From Thermogemmata fonticola (GTDB lineage: Bacteria; Planctomycetota; Planctomycetia; Gemmatales; Gemmataceae): DNA of 64,000 nucleotides. The translations under genes and the position numbers were made by a program. Where the stretch lies: NCBI RefSeq assembly GCF_013694095.1, contig NZ_JACEFB010000001.1, positions 806,001-870,000 on the forward strand, read 5' to 3'. This document shows, one piece after another, positions 45,799 through 54,823 of the stretch. The notes under the pieces were generated by a model. It made no database searches, was not told the origin of the DNA, and was given only the letters and a program-made list of their open reading frames with translations. Position 1 is the first letter of the stretch; each line of letters opens with the position of its first letter.

Positions 45799-48444
45799 GT
45801 GCCAATCCTCTTTGCGATCACGCTGTTCGTAAGTGCTTCCCTATTGTTCATGGTTCAACCGATGGTGGCGAAGATGATCCTTCCGCTGTTGGGAGGAAGC
45901 CCCGCGGTGTGGAACGCTTGCATGGTGTTTTTCCAGGCGTTACTCCTGTTGGGCTATCTTTACGCGCACCGGATCACCCAACGCATGACGCCGTGGAACC
46001 AGTGGATTCTCCATCTCGTGGTAGTGGCCCTGCCGTTTCTGAGTTTTCTGTTGGCCATTATTTTCGGCTCCCGCCACACACCGATCGCCATTGTGGAAAG
46101 TTTAGCCCCGACAGGTGATGCCAACCCCGTCCTCCACGTTCTGGCCTTGCTCGCCGTGGCAATCGGCATCCCCTTTTTCGTAATTTCGACGAGTGCTCCT
46201 CTGCTGCAACGGTGGTTTGCATACACTGGCCACCCTTCCGCACGAGACCCCTACTTTCTTTACTCCGCGAGTAATGCGGGGAGCATGATTTCGCTCCTCG
46301 GTTACCCCTTACTGATCGAACCGAACCTGAGCATCGTCGGCCAAGCATGGCTGTTTGCCATCGGTTTCGCCTTGCTGGCCTCGCTGGTGTATCTCTGCGG
46401 TCACGCCGCTACCCATCCGGTGAGTGTCCCGCCGCCGAAGAATCTGACGACCTATGGCAGCGGAAAACGCAAAAACAGCTTCGATAGCCGTTCGGCCGGG
46501 ACAGGAGAAACTGCCACATCGCTTGCCGAGGCGGAGGCAGAGCCACCCCCTACTCTGTGGCAAAAGCTCCGGTGGATCGCCCTGGCATTTGTCCCATCCA
46601 GTCTGATGCTGGGCGTGACCTTCCATATGAGCACGGATATTGCCAGCATCCCGCTAATGTGGGTCATTCCCCTTTCCCTGTACTTGCTGACATTCATCAT
46701 CGCTTTTGGCCGGTTGCCAGCTTGGTTCCGGATTGTGATCGGCAATCTCGCCCCGGTTATGATTCTACTCTTGGTATTCACCATGATCTCCAAAGTCGTA
46801 AGTGGACATATGGGCTTGGAAATACTCTTACATATCCTCACATTTTTTGCCGTGGCTTTGATGTGCCACTATGAGTTGGCTTATGATCGTCCCAGTACAA
46901 AATACTTGACGGAGTTCTATTTGCTGATGTCCGTGGGCGGAATGCTCGGAGGTATATTCAACGCCATCGTCGCTCCCCTAGTTTTCAAGCATGCATTTGA
47001 GTACCCATTGGTGTTGATCATGGCCTGTCTATTGGTCCCATCGCTGGCTCAAATGACAGCGGCAAAAACTTCGAGCAGCGATCGAACTGCTTCCGGGAAT
47101 ACATCCGGGAATACTGATTGTCGTCCCAGGCGATCTTGGTCAAAGTGGCTAGTATGGTCCCGGGACCTCATCATTCCCGTGCTGGTTTACTTCGCCTTCG
47201 ACTTTATTCATAAACTTCCTGGTAGCGATTGGTATGCGGCAGAAATCCTCAATGGAAGTGAAAGTGGAGGATCTGATACTTTTTGTCGCATTGTCATTTC
47301 ATTGTCAGATAACTTGAATTTGGCACCTCAGACGATCATTGCCATCCTGGTATTTGCGGTCCCAGTCATGGTGTGTTTCTTTTTCGTGGATCGTCCCTTG
47401 CGGTTTGCATTGTCTGTCGCGGCGATCCTGATGCCCATAAAGTATCAAGACTCCGTGATGGGTTACATTCACGTGGATCGGAGTTTCTTTGGTATTTTGA
47501 AGGTGGAGAAACGGGGTACCTTCAATCGCTTGATCCACGGGACCACGCTGCACGGAACACAATTCAACGAGGAATTCGTGCGGCACTGGCGGGACGACTT
47601 GCAGTTTATGATTCCGAATTCTCCCTGGGATGTGGTAGTCATCGCGGGAGCAAACTGGCATTATGATGTGCGCCAGGAACCGCTGACATACTATCACCGC
47701 ACAGGTCCGGTCGGGGCTGCATTCCGCGAATTGCGCACGCGGAAAGGAGGAGCGGATGCCAAAGCGCCGGTCGCTATGGTTGGCTTAGGCACCGGCAGTG
47801 TTTCCTGTTACGCGCTTCCCGGTCAAAAGCTGGTTTTTTACGAAATTGATCCGGCAGTCAAGGCTCTTGTTGCCGATTCGGACCGCTTTTTCACCTATGT
47901 GCGGGATGCCCGCAACCGGGGGGCCGAGGTTGTTATTCGCATGGGCGACGCCCGCCTCAAACTCAAAGAAGATGTCGATGCTCGCTATGCCCTGCTCTTT
48001 GTGGACGCCTTCAGTTCCGATGCTATCCCAGTTCACCTGATCACGCGTGAGGCCGTGCAACTGTATATGGACCGCCTCACGGAGGATGGCATTTTGGCTC
48101 TGCATATTTCCAACAAGTATGTGGCTCTGGAGCCGGTCGTCGCAGCCATTGCTCAGGACTTGGGTCTGGAAGCCCGTATCTGGAACGATTCCTCGGAACG
48201 CCACATCGGCAAGACAGCTTCGAGCTGGGTGGTGCTAGCCCGCAACCGCCAAACGCTCGGTACCCTCGCCTTACCGCCAGAGGAACAACAGAAGTACGGA
48301 ACCGATTTCCGGCCCCTCCATTCTCTGAAAAACATGGAAGCCTGGACGGATGATTATGCCGATGTGTTGCGGGTCATGATGTTAGACGAAGTGCGGCGCC
48401 TGCGGAAATTGTTCGGCTTGCCAACTTACCGGGATGAGGACTGA
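45799..48444 (+). CDS. Membrane-fused spermidine synthase-like protein
   Basis: Protein of 881 residues with two parts. The first, about 1-560, is a multi-pass membrane region (FAITLFVSASLLFMVQPMVA, MVFFQALLLLGYLYAHR) with some transporter-like features. The second, about 640-800, is a spermidine synthase-like methyltransferase fold with the nucleotide-binding loop VGLGTGSVSCYA, the acidic LVFYEIDPAVKAL and VDAFSSDAIPVHLITREA. Fused proteins of this type are often annotated as spermine synthase or MFS, but whether they make polyamines is unproven. The start is a GTG at 45799, with GAGGGA eight bases upstream. It stands alone just before the C1 cluster. Confidence 0.88.
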   Translation: MPILFAITLFVSASLLFMVQPMVAKMILPLLGGSPAVWNACMVFFQALLLLGYLYAHRITQRMTPWNQWILHLVVVALPFLSFLLAIIFGSRHTPIAIVESLAPTGDANPVLHVLALLAVAIGIPFFVISTSAPLLQRWFAYTGHPSARDPYFLYSASNAGSMISLLGYPLLIEPNLSIVGQAWLFAIGFALLASLVYLCGHAATHPVSVPPPKNLTTYGSGKRKNSFDSRSAGTGETATSLAEAEAEPPPTLWQKLRWIALAFVPSSLMLGVTFHMSTDIASIPLMWVIPLSLYLLTFIIAFGRLPAWFRIVIGNLAPVMILLLVFTMISKVVSGHMGLEILLHILTFFAVALMCHYELAYDRPSTKYLTEFYLLMSVGGMLGGIFNAIVAPLVFKHAFEYPLVLIMACLLVPSLAQMTAAKTSSSDRTASGNTSGNTDCRPRRSWSKWLVWSRDLIIPVLVYFAFDFIHKLPGSDWYAAEILNGSESGGSDTFCRIVISLSDNLNLAPQTIIAILVFAVPVMVCFFFVDRPLRFALSVAAILMPIKYQDSVMGYIHVDRSFFGILKVEKRGTFNRLIHGTTLHGTQFNEEFVRHWRDDLQFMIPNSPWDVVVIAGANWHYDVRQEPLTYYHRTGPVGAAFRELRTRKGGADAKAPVAMVGLGTGSVSCYALPGQKLVFYEIDPAVKALVADSDRFFTYVRDARNRGAEVVIRMGDARLKLKEDVDARYALLFVDAFSSDAIPVHLITREAVQLYMDRLTEDGILALHISNKYVALEPVVAAIAQDLGLEARIWNDSSERHIGKTASSWVVLARNRQTLGTLALPPEEQQKYGTDFRPLHSLKNMEAWTDDYADVLRVMMLDEVRRLRKLFGLPTYRDED

Positions 48445-48539: not shown

Positions 48540-49772
48540 ATGAGGCGCAGAGGCTGGTTCACAATGGGGGTGGTGGGCGTATCCGCTCGTGCCGCCGTGC
48601 AATCGCTCGCCAGAGCCGGTTGTTCTGCTTGGGCTGTGGACCTATTTGCTGACGTGGATTTGCAGCGCTGGGCTAAAGTGCAAAGGTGCTTGCCTCAGGC
48701 TTATCCCCATGCCCTGTCCCAACTGGCTGCCCAATTTCCCGCCTCGCCCTTCCTTTACACCGGGGGTCTGGAAAATTACCCGGAAGTGATTGCGAATCTG
48801 ATGGCGATTCATGAGCTGTGGGGGAATTGCCCGGAAACGGTGCGTGCTGTACGCGATCCCTGGCAACTGGCCCAATGCTTTCCGGAAGTGATTCCACCAG
48901 TGATTGCGCGACACCAAGCGTGCCCCGCCACGGGACAATGGCTATGCAAACCGCTACGTTCCGGTGGAGGGATAGGCATACGCTTCGCTCGCCCCGGAGA
49001 ATGCCCCGATAATCATCACTATTTGCAGCAATACCAAACCGGCCTGCCTGCCTCAGCCATCTGCTTGGATGATCGTTGCTTAGGCGTCACCCAGCAACTT
49101 CTCGGCCAGTCCTGGTTGCATGCCCGAAGCTTTTGCTGGTGCGGGAATGTAGGCCCCTGGATCGACGATTCGGAGGTGCTTTCTCTTTGCCAGCACTGGT
49201 GCCAGAGGTTCCAGCAGAACTACGGCTTGCAAGGGATTTGGGGCTTCGACTTCATTCGCCATCGGGGCGGGATCAGTGTAGTCGAGATTAATCCCCGCTA
49301 TCCCGCTTCGGTGGAGGTGCTGGAGCATGCGTATGCAAAGGCCGTCCTGCTGGGGGAAGTATCACCCGACATTTCACCCCGCTGGTTCGTGGCCAAGGCC
49401 ATTTATTACGCTCCCCATGATTTGTGTTTCCCGGACGGTGGTCCTTGGCTTGTCGATGTGCAAGCTGTTTTGGACCCGTGGCGCTGGCCAACTTACGCCG
49501 ACATTCCCCCGCCCGGCACTTTTATTCCTAAGAATCGGCCTGTACTGACTCTCTTGGCACGAGGTCACACTCTGACCAGTTGCATCGCGCACCTGCAACG
49601 ACTGGCGGCCCAGCTTGATCACCTTTTTGCCGAGGCGTCGGAGGCTGCTGTTTCTGCGCCAGGGTCTCCCCCAACAGACCAGTTTGTCACAGACATGACA
49701 ATGTGCCAGCCGGCCAATCAAAGTCTAGGCGACGATACATCCTTGAGGGAAGAAACCAAGGAGGAGCGATAA
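48540..49772 (+). CDS. OrfY-like ATP-grasp protein of the H4MPT cluster
   Basis: Protein of 410 residues with an ATP-grasp fold. In the C1 gene clusters of methylotrophs, the gene called orfY sits directly before mch and is needed for tetrahydromethanopterin-linked formaldehyde oxidation. Here it has the same position, 39 bp before mch. Recognisable ATP-grasp parts are WLCKPLRSGGGIGIRFA (ATP loop) and GIWGFDFIRHRGGISVVEINPRYPAS (metal-binding Glu and Asn). The start is taken at the ATG 48540 with AGGG five bases upstream; an in-frame GTG at 48492 and ATG at 48564 are alternatives. The exact ligase reaction is not known; cofactor synthesis is likely. Confidence 0.85.
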   Translation: MRRRGWFTMGVVGVSARAAVQSLARAGCSAWAVDLFADVDLQRWAKVQRCLPQAYPHALSQLAAQFPASPFLYTGGLENYPEVIANLMAIHELWGNCPETVRAVRDPWQLAQCFPEVIPPVIARHQACPATGQWLCKPLRSGGGIGIRFARPGECPDNHHYLQQYQTGLPASAICLDDRCLGVTQQLLGQSWLHARSFCWCGNVGPWIDDSEVLSLCQHWCQRFQQNYGLQGIWGFDFIRHRGGISVVEINPRYPASVEVLEHAYAKAVLLGEVSPDISPRWFVAKAIYYAPHDLCFPDGGPWLVDVQAVLDPWRWPTYADIPPPGTFIPKNRPVLTLLARGHTLTSCIAHLQRLAAQLDHLFAEASEAAVSAPGSPPTDQFVTDMTMCQPANQSLGDDTSLREETKEER

Positions 49773-49811
49773 TCTCCCCGTTGTCTCGACGACCTCTTGG
49801 GAGGAGAATTC

Positions 49812-50756
49812 ATGACCCTGAACGAGATGGCTCAGCGCGTGGCGGAAGAACTGGTGCGGGATCCTGGACGTTATCGCGTGGCGGTTACGCGTGTGGCTGG
49901 TGCTCATGTCATTGATTGTGGCGGGGCGGTGGATGGGAGCTTGGCCGCTGGCATTCTGATGGCTCGGACGTGTCTGGCCGATTTGGGGCAAGTCAGCCTG
50001 GTCCCTTATCCCCTCGGCAATGTCGGGGGGCTAGCGGTGCAAGTGGTGACGGACGAACCGGTGCGAGCCTGTCTGGCCTCCCAGTACGCCGGATGGCGCC
50101 TTCAGGTCGGCGAGTATTTTGCGATGGCATCCGGCCCCATGCGGGCCTTGGCGGCGCGTGAGGAGCTGTTCCAGCACATTCCCGGCCAGGAGCGAGCACC
50201 GGTCGCTGTCGGAGTGCTCGAAACCCACCAGCATCCCACTCCCGAAGTGATTGCTGCCATCGTGGCCAAACTGCCCGAGGATACGGAACATCTGACCTTG
50301 CTAGTGGCTCCAACGACAAGTCTCGCCGGCACGTTGCAGGTCGTGGCACGCTCGGTCGAAACGGCCTTGCACAAACTGCATGAGCTGCATTTCGATGTGC
50401 GGCAAGTGGTCAGTGGGTGGGGTTTGGCTCCCTTGCCTCCTGTGGCCCGCAATACCATCGAAGCGATCGGACGCACGAACGACGCCATCCTGTACGGAGC
50501 GGAAGTGATCCTCTGGGTCCACTGCGATGACGACCTGCTCACCAGCATCGGCCCCCAGGTTCCCGCCTGTGCCTCGCGAGATTATGGCTCACCGTTTGCC
50601 GAGTTGTTCCGCCGATACAATGGAGACTTCTATCAGATCGATCCCCTGCTCTTTGCACCCGCAGTCGTGGAATTCCGAAATTTACGGACAGGCCGTTGCC
50701 ACCGATATGGCCAGCTCTCTCCCGACTTGCTGATCCGATCGTTCGGACGGAGCTAA
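49812..50756 (+). CDS. mch: Methenyltetrahydromethanopterin cyclohydrolase
   Basis: Cytoplasmic enzyme of 314 residues that hydrolyses methenyl-H4MPT to formyl-H4MPT in C1 oxidation (or the reverse in reduction). Segments typical of the family include LVPYPLGNVGGLAVQV, ASQYAGWRLQV, YFAMASGPMRALA and DPLLFAPAVVEFRN. The ATG at 49812 has GGAGGAG just upstream and was chosen over an ATG at 49797. It lies between the OrfY-like and Orf5-like genes with short gaps, as in methylotrophs. No fae, mtdB or fhc genes are in the window, so the pathway must be completed elsewhere. Confidence 0.95.
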   Translation: MTLNEMAQRVAEELVRDPGRYRVAVTRVAGAHVIDCGGAVDGSLAAGILMARTCLADLGQVSLVPYPLGNVGGLAVQVVTDEPVRACLASQYAGWRLQVGEYFAMASGPMRALAAREELFQHIPGQERAPVAVGVLETHQHPTPEVIAAIVAKLPEDTEHLTLLVAPTTSLAGTLQVVARSVETALHKLHELHFDVRQVVSGWGLAPLPPVARNTIEAIGRTNDAILYGAEVILWVHCDDDLLTSIGPQVPACASRDYGSPFAELFRRYNGDFYQIDPLLFAPAVVEFRNLRTGRCHRYGQLSPDLLIRSFGRS

Positions 50757-50782
50757 GGTAAAGCCAGAATCGAGGAAGCCCG

Positions 50783-51670
50783 ATGCGTGTCGCCATATTA
50801 TCCGGAGGTCGCGGCTGGCATGTCCAAGATTTGCTTCGCGCGGCAGAAGGGTTACGCTTGCAAGCCGATGTGCTGGACTTTCGCCATCTGAGTGCGGGAA
50901 CGGGCCAGGGTTGGAATCCAGGGGGTGGACCGCTGGCGGGGTATCAGGCTGCTTTGGTCCGCACGATACCCGCCGGATCGCTGGAACAAATCATTTTTCG
51001 CATGGATTGTCTCCATGCGGCAGTCCTCCGAGGTCTCACCATTGTGAATGCGCCGAAAGCGGTGGAAGTCTGCGTGGACAAGTATCTGACCTCGGTCCGG
51101 TTGAGTCAGGCCGGTTTACCGACACCGCTGACTTTCGTTGCCCAGAGAACCGAGGAAGCCATGCAAGGCTTCGATGTCCTCGGAGGTGATGTCGTCGTCA
51201 AACCATTGTTTGGAGCTGAGGGTCGCGGCTTGCAACGAATCTCTGATCCCGAACTCGCTTGGCGGACCTTCCGCGTCCTGGAAACCAGCGGACAAGTGAT
51301 CTATTTGCAACAGTACCTCCCTCATCAGGGGTATGATGTCCGCGCCTTTGTGCTGGGGAACAAGGTATTGGCCGCCATGCAGCGGCATGCCCGTGCAGGC
51401 GACTGGCGGACCAACGTCGCCCAAGGAGGGATAGCCGTGGCTCGCCCGGTGTGTGGTACGATCGCCGATTTGGCCCGCCGGGCAGCTCAGGCCGTAGATT
51501 GCCTCATCGCTGGCGTCGATCTACTCCAGGACCGCCAGGATCGCTGGTGGGTGCTCGAAGTCAATGCTGTCCCAGGGTGGAAAGCCCTGGCTGCGACATG
51601 CCAAATCGATGTTGCCCAGGAAATCTGGCGCTATGTTACCCGATTGGCTCGAAGTGTGAGAGAGGTGTAG
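50783..51670 (+). CDS. Orf5-like ATP-grasp (RimK family) ligase of the H4MPT cluster
   Basis: RimK-type ATP-grasp protein of 295 residues. Family motifs are present: ATP-binding Lys segments (VCVDKYLTSVRL, DVVVKPLFGAEGRGL), and the metal-binding end QDRQDRWWVLEVNAVPGWKAL. Such enzymes add amino acids to a carboxyl group; MptN in archaea adds glutamate to tetrahydromethanopterin, and the Orf5 homologue in methylotrophs is in this position (after mch). The start at 50783 has GAGGA seven bases upstream. The role is inferred from family and position. Confidence 0.88.
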   Translation: MRVAILSGGRGWHVQDLLRAAEGLRLQADVLDFRHLSAGTGQGWNPGGGPLAGYQAALVRTIPAGSLEQIIFRMDCLHAAVLRGLTIVNAPKAVEVCVDKYLTSVRLSQAGLPTPLTFVAQRTEEAMQGFDVLGGDVVVKPLFGAEGRGLQRISDPELAWRTFRVLETSGQVIYLQQYLPHQGYDVRAFVLGNKVLAAMQRHARAGDWRTNVAQGGIAVARPVCGTIADLARRAAQAVDCLIAGVDLLQDRQDRWWVLEVNAVPGWKALAATCQIDVAQEIWRYVTRLARSVREV

Positions 51671-51758
51671 GCACCGTAGTCTCTCAATCAGCGGGAGGTG
51701 TAGGTGGCTGGATAGGATCAAGAAGCCCTCAGACACGGAGACAGAAGGAGGAAATGTC

Positions 51759-51764
51759 AAGGAG
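51759..51764 (+). promoter_or_regulatory. Ribosome binding site fixing the orf7-like start
   Basis: AAGGAG lies seven bases before the ATG at 51772. Another ATG at 51754 has its GGAGG only two bases away, so this site favours the start at 51772. Confidence 0.6.
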
Positions 51765-51771
51765 ACCGGCG

Positions 51772-52704
51772 ATGCAACTGTTTACGAGGCTGGATCACAC
51801 ACCGCTTATTGCTGCTGCGGAGGCATCCTCCGTGGCCCTGCATGTGCAGACGGCTTGCATTTGGGAAGTTCTTTCCCGAAAGCTCGGTAATGTCCACCGT
51901 TACCAGGATTTCGCCGATACGACACTGGCCGATTTTCTCTTGAGTGCCGCCGCTTGTGCCGGACCGCTGAGTCAGTCGACCCTCCCATTGGGCCAGCGAA
52001 TCTATCAAGCGGTGGCCGCAACGCGGAGGATTGTCAGGGTGAATACTAACCTCGGCATCATCCTTCTATTAGCCCCCCTGACAGGACTGGATTACTCGTC
52101 GCGGTGGGAAAACGAGTTGGGAAAAGTTCTCCAAGCCGCAGACCTGGCCGATGCGCGGGATGTCTATGCCGCGATTCGCTTGGCTCAACCGTCGGGCTTG
52201 GGTCAAGTCCCCCGTGAAGACGTGCGGGGAGAACCTACGTTGCGCTTGCAACAGGTCATGGCCTTGGCAGCAGATTACGATCTTATCGCCCGTCAATACG
52301 TCACAGATTATGCTGACGTGCGGCAGTTTGGACTGCCCGTGTTGATCGAGGCTTGGGAACGCTGGGGCTGTGTCGAAGCGGCTGTTCTCGAATGCCAACT
52401 TCATTGGCTTGCCCAATACGGCGACTCAGCAATCGCCCGAAAAAATGGTCCGGCAGCGGCGCAGTGGGTACAACAGCAAGCCCAAGAGGTGCTAAACTTG
52501 GGGGGGTTGAGCAGTGCCGCGGGGCGGCGCGCTGCCGCCCAACTGGATCGTCGTCTGCGGCTGCCAGATAATCGCTTCAATCCTGGCACCACCGCCGATC
52601 TCATTACCGCCTGTTTATTCGTAGCCCTACGAACTCAGGTATTGCGCCCGGATTCCCCCTTTGTTTGGGCACAATCCCTCGGAGTCGAGTTGGCATCGCT
52701 ATAA
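51772..52704 (+). CDS. Orf7-like triphosphoribosyl-dephospho-CoA synthase family protein of the H4MPT cluster
   Basis: Protein of 310 residues similar in layout to the CitG/MdcB family, which makes triphosphoribosyl-dephospho-CoA; in methylotrophs the gene orf7 of this family lies after orf5 in the H4MPT cluster. Recognisable segments are SRKLGNVHRYQDFADTTLAD (family start), NTNLGIILLLAPL and RRLRLPDNRFNPGTTADLIT. In this setting it probably makes a step of cofactor assembly by attaching a ribosyl-phosphate unit. The longer open frame back to 51451 overlaps orf5 and is not coding. It is close to the preceding gene (101 bp). Confidence 0.88.
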   Translation: MQLFTRLDHTPLIAAAEASSVALHVQTACIWEVLSRKLGNVHRYQDFADTTLADFLLSAAACAGPLSQSTLPLGQRIYQAVAATRRIVRVNTNLGIILLLAPLTGLDYSSRWENELGKVLQAADLADARDVYAAIRLAQPSGLGQVPREDVRGEPTLRLQQVMALAADYDLIARQYVTDYADVRQFGLPVLIEAWERWGCVEAAVLECQLHWLAQYGDSAIARKNGPAAAQWVQQQAQEVLNLGGLSSAAGRRAAAQLDRRLRLPDNRFNPGTTADLITACLFVALRTQVLRPDSPFVWAQSLGVELASL

Positions 52705-52810
52705 CATGGATCGGAGGATCAAGAAGGCACCCAAGGGTCCTGAAGTCTCGCCGGGGAGGACCTCTTTGAGAACAACTGCCCGGAATTCCCCTAGCCTCTG
52801 ATAAAATATC

Positions 52811-53317
52811 ATGCCGACTGAACGCTACAAGGTGCGCGTCACCAAAGATCATCTCGTATTCTGCTGCGGGCACTTTATCAGCTACCGCGGACACCAGTGC
52901 GAACGACTCCACGGACACAATTACCGTGCTGCGGTGGAGGTCGAAGGCCCGTTGCAAGCGGATTTTTATGTGGTGGATTTCATCGCTTTGAAGCATCTGA
53001 CGCGAGAAATCACCGATGAATTGGATCACCACATGCTCCTGCCCACGCGCAATCCGGTGATCCAGGTGGAGGAACGCGGCTCAGTGGTGGCTGTGCGTTA
53101 TGCGGAACGGCAATGGCTCTTTCCCCGCGATGACTGCGTCCTATTGCCCATCGAAAACACCACCGCCGAGCTGCTAGCCCACTATATTGCCGGCCGCTTG
53201 TGGCAATCCCTGCAACAGCGCGAGGGGTTCACACCCGATATCTTGCGTGTGGAAGTGGAGGAAGCACCGGGGCAGAGCGCAACCGTAGAGTGGCGTTCCT
53301 CATCCACCCCGGCGTAA
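52811..53317 (+). CDS. 6-pyruvoyltetrahydropterin synthase family protein
   Basis: Pterin enzyme of 168 residues in the PTPS/QueD fold. Zinc ligands are visible: His21 (CCGHFI), His34 and His36 (RLHGHNY). The catalytic Cys30 (QCERLHGHNY) is kept, and the partner His is in ELDHHMLL. The C-terminal acidic motif VEVEEAPGQSA includes a substrate-binding Glu. In bacteria the family also makes the queuosine precursor (QueD). Because it closes the H4MPT cluster, it may instead supply the pterin of that cofactor. No ribosome site is clear before the ATG at 52811. Confidence 0.92.
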   Translation: MPTERYKVRVTKDHLVFCCGHFISYRGHQCERLHGHNYRAAVEVEGPLQADFYVVDFIALKHLTREITDELDHHMLLPTRNPVIQVEERGSVVAVRYAERQWLFPRDDCVLLPIENTTAELLAHYIAGRLWQSLQQREGFTPDILRVEVEEAPGQSATVEWRSSSTPA

Positions 53318-53349: not shown

Positions 53350-54303
53350 TCACCGCCACATCGACCGTTCAGGATGAGCGGCTCCATCTTGCCTCGGAGG
53401 TGGATCAGGAACGGACAAGCGATCGTTGAGCAAACGCTGATACAGCGCGCGCAGTTGTCGCCGCAGCGGCTGAGCTTGGACGAAGAGCTGGCGTTGGGCT
53501 TCGATGTATTCAGCGCGCCCTTCGGTGGTTTCGATGCAGATCGGTTCGAGGCCATAAACGCGGAGATCGTAGGGGCTAGCACGCATGTCCAACTCGCGGG
53601 CGCGCCGGGCGAGATCAAAGGTAGCTGCCACTAGGGATCCCGGACAAAACGGCGCGATTTTATAGGCGAACCGATACAGGTCCATGTTGACGTGAACACA
53701 AGCCGGTTGATCGAAGCGGATCGCATCCGACCGTGTCAACTCCCAGCGGTTGAGCGGACGAGCCGACGGCGTGAAAAACCGGTACGCGTCGTAATGGGTA
53801 CATCGCAACGACTGTTGCCGCACGAAGGCGTCGATTCTCTCGCTCTGAAGTCGCAGTGGCACATAGGGATGACGGATGCAAGACTCCTGATATACCATCG
53901 CCCATTCGTGCAGACCGAAACAACTCCACGCCGGCTCGCGAGCTTCCACAGCCTCCAAATACTCCACTGCCCAACGCAAATAATCCACGCGGTGGGCCGG
54001 AAACGCCTCCACAGGCAATACCACTCCCTCTGTGATCTCGATAAATTCCCGCCAGCCTACGTCTTCAATGCGGGCGCCTTGCAACACGATGCCCCACCCC
54101 GGCGACCAACGCAAAAGATGACTGGGACGATATGAGTAATACTCAAACAAAAAATCATACACCGGATGGCGCTGGCCCCGGCTGGATCGCTGCAATCGCG
54201 CCTCGACCCAGGGACGAAGGAGCGATAGATCCCGTTGCCGCTCTTCACGCCATCGATCCGCTGGCCACCATTCATACGGCTGCCTGATCGCCCCGACGGC
54301 CAT
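53350..54303 (-). CDS. Conserved protein of a family often labelled 3-methyladenine DNA glycosylase
   Basis: Protein of 317 residues with very recognisable sequence blocks (VYDFLFEYYSYRPSHLLRW, CFGLHEWAMVYQ, YDAYRFFTPSARPLN, DMRASPYDLRVYGLEP) that I know from a family widespread in actinobacteria and some other bacteria and often called 3-methyladenine DNA glycosylase. It shares no helix-hairpin-helix motif or obvious catalytic acid with known glycosylases, so the name is not trusted here. The ATG at 54303 has GGAG seven bases upstream, next to an in-frame GTG at 54306. It is convergent with the PTPS gene, 32 bp from its end. Confidence 0.82.
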   Translation of the reverse strand: MAVGAIRQPYEWWPADRWREERQRDLSLLRPWVEARLQRSSRGQRHPVYDFLFEYYSYRPSHLLRWSPGWGIVLQGARIEDVGWREFIEITEGVVLPVEAFPAHRVDYLRWAVEYLEAVEAREPAWSCFGLHEWAMVYQESCIRHPYVPLRLQSERIDAFVRQQSLRCTHYDAYRFFTPSARPLNRWELTRSDAIRFDQPACVHVNMDLYRFAYKIAPFCPGSLVAATFDLARRARELDMRASPYDLRVYGLEPICIETTEGRAEYIEAQRQLFVQAQPLRRQLRALYQRLLNDRLSVPDPPPRQDGAAHPERSMWR

Positions 54304-54823
54304 CACCTCTCTCCAATCCCAGAATCTACGAAGGATTCCACACCGAACGAAGAATCTCTTGACCGCACTATCAGGATTGTACGCGCGCTGAAGCGCTAGC
54401 TCCGGCGAGCCTATCGCTCATCCTATCTGTCCATAGACACACGAAAAATGCCAAAACTTAGCACCGAAGTGGATAGGTGGCAGGGAAAAACAAGGGGTTA
54501 AAAGAAGTGTCCCGCTCCAGATTGTTGCTGCGTCGCCCATTCACAGCAACCATCCTTTGCGGGACAATGGAATCGTAGCACCCGATCTGGGAAAAAGCAA
54601 AAAAATTCTTCCGGACTATCGCAGAAAAAGAGTTTGGCTTGTCAAAATTTTCGACACCTCCCCATCGTTCTCTTCACCTGTCTCAAGTTTGACGTAAATT
54701 ATTGATATTTCTGATGTTGAGATGAAAAAGCTCAAAAAATACGGAGGGAAAATGGAGCGGAACTCAGAATTCCTCAGGGGGAAAGTGTCATTTTCATCGT
54801 TTTTTCATATGAAGCGATTGTGA
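54304..54823. other. Intergenic region with nested inverted repeat and AT-rich tract
   Basis: A 520-bp gap between the gntP gene (its 3' end) and the 53350 gene (its 5' end). It includes a nested inverted repeat (54508-54566) and an AT-rich run (about 54590-54810). No coding region supported. Confidence 0.6.
54508..54566. other. Nested inverted repeat (possible structured RNA)
   Basis: An outer 8-bp perfect stem, TGTCCCGC (54508-54515) with GCGGGACA (54559-54566), encloses a 7-bp perfect stem, GTTGCTG (54524-54530) with CAGCAAC (54544-54550). Such nesting is more than expected by chance at this spot, but no known riboswitch or terminator (no T-run) is matched. Confidence 0.5.

Follow-up and report, generated by a model that had tools for sequence, protein, structure and literature searches.

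The 64,000-nucleotide window of Thermogemmata fonticola analysed here (contig C1, positions 806001-870000 of a 4.81 Mb genome in 61 contigs) carries at 48540-53317, on the plus strand, five adjacent genes encoding OrfY/MyfA, the methenyl-tetrahydromethanopterin (methenyl-H4MPT) cyclohydrolase Mch, Orf5/MyfB, the CitG-family protein Orf7 and a PTPS. This cluster is probably an operon for cofactor supply and the cyclohydrolase step within a complete H4MPT/methylofuran pathway, in which formaldehyde is oxidized towards CO2 and a selenocysteine-containing FwdABCD complex acts at the end. An operon of all five genes is plausible given the short gaps between them (about 25-107 bp), and most of the five serve cofactor synthesis instead of catalyzing C1 steps directly.

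The initial annotation had matched the first four genes, in order, to the orfY, mch, orf5 and orf7 genes of methylotrophic proteobacteria, and profile searches, BLASTP and gene order all bear this out. OrfY (48540 or 48564..49772) is an ATP-grasp glutamate ligase (PF02655, ATP-grasp_3, 55.7 bits, 7.8e-15), Mch (49797..50756) scores 398 bits against TIGR03120 (cut-off 229) and 370 bits against PF02289 and matches the PDB entries 4gvq/1qlm with E values of 1e-70 to 1e-68, and Orf5 (50783..51670) is a RimK-type glutamate ligase (TIGR00768, 186 bits, cut-off 143) whose best NCBIfam match, MptN with 226 bits, stays under its cut-off of 350. For a check of the names, the window proteins were compared by BLASTP with annotated, plasmid-borne mch regions of Azoarcus, Azospirillum and Thiodictyon, all three of which have the arrangement mptG-mtdB-[ATP-grasp]-mch-[RimK-type]-[CitG]-fae. 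OrfY, Mch, Orf5 and Orf7 of the window pair collinearly with the corresponding genes (E values from 1e-79 to 7e-19), and the order orfY-mch-orf5-orf7 is thus common to the window and to Alpha-, Beta- and Gammaproteobacteria. OrfY is 28-30% identical, over nearly its full length, to the ATP-grasp gene directly upstream of mch in Azoarcus and Thiodictyon (E value of 1e-28), and in the proteobacterial clusters this mch-adjacent gene scores better than the second ATP-grasp gene; Orf5 is 35-41% identical to Orf5 of the three proteobacteria. In Proteobacteria, the second glutamate of methylofuran is attached by OrfY (MyfA), and its polyglutamate tail is extended by Orf5 (MyfB) (PMC8141765); both homology and position place the window proteins in the H4MPT/methylofuran pathway, as the TIGR03120 score does for Mch. 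The gene order is not a matter of chance, because it recurs in relatives. Compared with the proteobacterial cluster (mptG-mtdB-orfY-mch-orf5-orf7-fae), the window shares the four genes on one strand with 26-44% identity, whereas its fae and mtdB counterparts are located on a different contig, orf7 is followed by a PTPS-III-like gene, and the terminal complex is Fwd-like with selenocysteine instead of Fhc-like.

As one of the two initial alternatives had it, the genes for the remaining steps are found outside the window: contig 4 holds both fae and mtdB, contig 2 carries ftr together with fwdD and fwdB (fwdD-fwdB at L052:10086-12168), and contig 3 has fwdA and fwdC (L096:10154-12806). The same genome encodes Fae, MtdB, Ftr and the Fwd subunits, seven further H4MPT genes in one copy each, and the condition named at the outset as refuting the initial reading, a genome devoid of the other H4MPT genes, thus does not hold. 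Across the order, Fae was found in 96 of 101 genomes, Mch in 99 of 101, Ftr in 31 of 31, MtdB in 30 of 31 and FwdA in all 41 searched, indicating that the cluster is a normal core feature of this lineage; planctomycetes had been credited with H4MPT-linked C1 genes from the outset, and reports of these go back to 2004 (cited in PMC5020050). Genes were called by codon-usage scoring, since taking the longest open reading frames produced antisense artefacts in so GC-rich a genome. In this genus fwdD-fwdB and fwdA-fwdC are on separate contigs, so that what relatives have as a fwdDBAC operon is here broken up; given that fwdA is likewise on another contig than fwdB in a second genome of the genus (G018), the separation is not an artefact of one assembly.

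The evidence for the end of the pathway comes from fwdB (L052:10813-12168, plus strand; TIGR03129, 499 bits), which has an in-frame TGA as codon 125, within DSHTSL-U-HGPT, at the position where methanogen FwdB has the Cys or selenocysteine that serves as Mo/W ligand. Exactly one TGA in the FwdB gene was counted in 46 of the 101 genomes of the order and Cys at that position in 16 others, both numbers being taken by hand from tables. A 7-bp hairpin with the loop AGTT starts about 21 nt into the stretch that opens with the TGA in 16 of 16 distinct selenocysteine-type genes, and it was not found after the Cys codon in 16 Cys-type genes. When contigs of GTDB were scanned, all of the best 80 FwdB relatives, from Planctomycetota and Acidobacteriota, had the TGA, and 76 of these 80 had the hairpin pattern GCCGCCC-AGTT-GGGCGG; in L197 a pair is kept through a change on both sides. 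The gene thus has a UGA at the metal-ligand codon and a hairpin of the bacterial selenocysteine insertion sequence (SECIS) kind directly after it. A pseudogene or an assembly error as the source of the stop was rejected in view of the recurrence of the same TGA and the same hairpin in many genomes. Standard annotation would split fwdB at the UGA into two open reading frames of 124 and 318 aa. As for the selenocysteine machinery, selA is present in this genome (533 bits), and no tRNA-Sec was found next to it, the search having covered the surroundings of selA only; selA is widespread in the order and for this reason does not separate genomes with the selenocysteine form from those without it. 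Taken together, the in-frame TGA, the SECIS-like hairpin and selA make it probable that a formylmethanofuran dehydrogenase with selenocysteine, and not the proteobacterial Fhc hydrolase, catalyzes the last step of the pathway.

Such a selenoprotein has been described before, since a selenocysteine FmdB together with fmdDBAC was reported for planctomycete P2 in 2016 (PMC4807772), while a phylogeny of 2020 speaks of an absence of bacterial FwdB (PMC7331816) and a review of 2026 describes selenocysteine FwdB for methanogens (PMC13188914). Like the enzymes of methanogens and of planctomycete P2, the one described here has the UGA at the Mo/W ligand, fwdD adjacent to fwdB (upstream of it in this genome) and the iron-sulfur cysteines; unlike them, it has a bacterial SECIS-like hairpin directly after the UGA, it is part of a pathway that contains Fae, no FwdF/FwdG was found, and fwdA-fwdC are apart from fwdD-fwdB in this genus.

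Because the early genes and their order are the same as in proteobacteria, one could suppose that formaldehyde is detoxified to formate in the proteobacterial manner, the complex acting as a formyltransferase/hydrolase (Fhc) with the selenocysteine site unused. That the redox site can be lost is indicated by many relatives: among the FwdB loci of the order (L100-L115), the ligand is replaced in other copies by Gly, Glu, Ala, Ser, Thr, Asn or Gln, and a quick tree, in which some nodes are weakly supported, suggests that the ligand was lost several separate times. We nevertheless regard this explanation as unlikely, given that the selenocysteine form is the only FwdB over the cut-off both in this genome and in G018, that the iron-sulfur cysteines and FwdD are retained, and that the TGA and hairpin are maintained across two phyla. 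In addition, the planctomycete FwdB scores 375 bits with methanogen FwdB (5t5i_B) versus 51 bits with the much shorter chain 6s6y_B, which we take to be Methylorubrum FhcB, and Azospirillum FhcB lacks a Cys at the ligand position, where the gene studied here has its selenocysteine codon. Tandem FwdB genes also occur in the order, with a selenocysteine and a Cys copy in one locus (L104:1990-4791) and a Thr and a selenocysteine copy in another (L105:4054-6752).

The fifth gene of the cluster (52811..53317, plus strand) encodes a PTPS (PF01242, 83 bits, cut-off 22.4) with the motif CERLHGH, and its best PDB matches are 2a0s (E value of 3e-26) and 1y13 (1e-24), presumably both Plasmodium PTPS, with whose catalytic Glu the Glu of the motif aligns. 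The motif follows the hybrid rule CExxHGH described for PTPS (PMC5041015). In Plasmodium PTPS that Glu yields 6-hydroxymethyl-dihydropterin, bypassing the dihydroneopterin aldolase FolB (PMC2229834); the window enzyme resembles it in the catalytic Glu three residues before HGH, in the same long insert and in being matched best by it in the PDB, and differs in retaining the Cys before the Glu and in being encoded among H4MPT genes. Consistent with a PTPS-III enzyme, the ExxHGH motif coincides with the lack of FolB, which was not found in 41 of 41 genomes of the order by a search that was positive in 10 of 14 controls. Beside the corresponding cluster of Azoarcus, directly beyond fae, there is a FolB homologue. 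The PTPS gene adjoins Orf7 in 26 of 29 genomes (counted by hand from gene coordinates), which sustains its initial assignment to the cluster, of which it is probably a functional member.

With the CxxxHGH motif of QueD retained and a match of 67 bits to TIGR03367 (QueD), although under its cut-off of 89 bits, the gene might instead be taken for a second QueD gene, for queuosine, lying downstream of the cluster by chance. This appears improbable, since at least two PTPS genes are present in 39 of 41 genomes of the order and the other paralogue, which is also present in this genome, is of the QueD type (CxxxHGH without the Glu) in 30 of 30 loci examined, while the cluster-linked copies have the extra Glu, the residue that in Plasmodium makes 6-hydroxymethyl-dihydropterin, in 12 of 12 checked; the absence of FolB throughout the 41 genomes argues in the same direction. 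From the motif, the Plasmodium match, the missing FolB, the adjacency to Orf7 and the FolB gene of Azoarcus, the PTPS of the window is best read as the pterin supplier of the pathway, and we infer that it would take over from FolB by converting dihydroneopterin triphosphate to 6-hydroxymethyl-7,8-dihydropterin, and would thereby supply folate and H4MPT synthesis alike.

In the oxidative pathway that we favor, Fae and MtdB would supply methenyl-H4MPT from elsewhere in the genome, Mch would open it to formyl-H4MPT, and Ftr would transfer the formyl group to methylofuran, whose polyglutamate tail would be assembled with the help of OrfY/MyfA and Orf5/MyfB; FwdABCD, with the selenocysteine of FwdB as Mo/W ligand, would then oxidize the formyl group to CO2. 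The initial annotation had offered as an alternative that the pathway is used differently, and this is supported by a terminal complex of archaeal Fwd type with selenocysteine and FwdD and by the lack of a pyrroloquinoline quinone (PQQ) methanol dehydrogenase over the cut-off. Several observations weigh against the oxidative pathway as proposed. A PQQ methanol dehydrogenase was never over the cut-off in 31 genomes, making methanol oxidation by that route unlikely; neither FwdF/FwdG nor any other electron acceptor was found; and MptG, MfnB, MfnE and MfnF were absent from the stretches read, no genome-wide search having been made. In several relatives (L116, L117, L127 and L135) MfnB is found a short way downstream of PTPS. 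Three genomes of the selenocysteine type have no selA over the cut-off and one has only a fragment at a contig end, possibly as a result of draft gaps. Finally, tblastn found all five genes together in only 7 of 27 sampled regions of relatives, a count in which a divergent OrfY may go undetected, and in the others they are partly dispersed.

A flux in the reverse direction, with CO2 being reduced to formyl- and methylene-H4MPT for biosynthesis, would accord with the CO2-reducing direction of methanogen Fwd (PMC11656701) and with the lack of a methanol dehydrogenase over the cut-off. We consider it very unlikely, because no low-potential electron donor was identified and Fae, besides being kept in nearly all genomes of the order, is clustered with the selenocysteine fwdB in Acidobacteriota, pointing to formaldehyde as the input. 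In four loci of this phylum (L209, L220, L230 and L231) fae-mtdB-orfY-fwdD-fwdB form one cluster, fwdB being of the selenocysteine type, and this arrangement ties the selenoenzyme to formaldehyde metabolism. The single compact cluster of L220 (Acidobacteria metagenome-assembled genome p16x34bins.10) comprises DUF6513, DUF447, mptG and these five genes, and continues with fwdA-fwdC-ftr.

Orf7 (about 51751..52704, plus strand) belongs to the CitG family (PF01874, 218 bits, cut-off 27), is the sole copy of this family in the genome and is 39-43% identical to the CitG gene beside mch/orf5 in the three proteobacteria. CitG displaces the adenine of ATP and forms an alpha-ribosyl bond, and an alpha-linked ribose is part of H4MPT. 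We infer that Orf7 is a candidate alpha-ribosyltransferase of H4MPT synthesis, which would probably add the alpha-ribosyl unit through CitG-like chemistry; a search for a link between CitG or triphosphoribosyl synthase and methanopterin found none among the papers covered. That Orf7 is instead a true CitG, making the prosthetic group of citrate lyase or malonate decarboxylase, would agree with its membership in PF01874 and yet is highly improbable, given that it scores only 33.5 and 49.7 bits with the CitG and MdcB equivalogs (cut-offs 272 and 282), that it is the sole copy, that the gene accompanies those for H4MPT both in planctomycetes and in members of three proteobacterial classes, and that among 14 control genomes the family is limited to all four archaea and E. 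coli. One relative (G023, mch region L119) has Mch and Fae, lacks Orf7 and has only a QueD-type PTPS, a pattern due either to joint loss of Orf7 and the second PTPS or to an assembly gap.

The H4MPT genes of planctomycetes have reportedly been a puzzle ever since 2004, given that methylotrophy is not known for most of these organisms. With a complete pathway in nearly all members of one order, and with a selenoenzyme predicted for its last step in many of them, the question of whether formate or CO2 is the product becomes directly testable. Concrete predictions can also be made for two steps of cofactor synthesis, namely that PTPS replaces FolB and that Orf7 acts as a ribosyltransferase. We tentatively propose, as a claim with somewhat less than an even chance of holding in full, that in this genus, as well as broadly across Planctomycetota and Acidobacteriota, H4MPT-dependent formaldehyde oxidation ends in a selenocysteine Fwd, which yields CO2 and low-potential electrons, and not in a formate-releasing Fhc, and that Orf7 is an ATP-using alpha-ribosyltransferase. 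The FwdB series with selenocysteine, Cys, Gly, Glu, Ser and others within one order can be read as nature's own record of the way in which a CO2/formate redox enzyme may become a hydrolase scaffold. While the cluster itself is mostly known biology, what is added here is a functional role for PTPS, a prediction of what Orf7 does and a predicted selenocysteine Fwd as the sole terminal enzyme in this genus.

Two genes flank the cluster in the window. Upstream, at 45799-48444 on the plus strand, lies a gene for a protein of 881 aa with a long membrane part and a spermidine-synthase-like domain (NF037959), which is possibly co-transcribed with the cluster. Downstream and convergent to PTPS, a gene at 53350-54306 on the minus strand encodes a protein of 318 aa with no Pfam or NCBIfam match, and at this place several relatives have MfnB.

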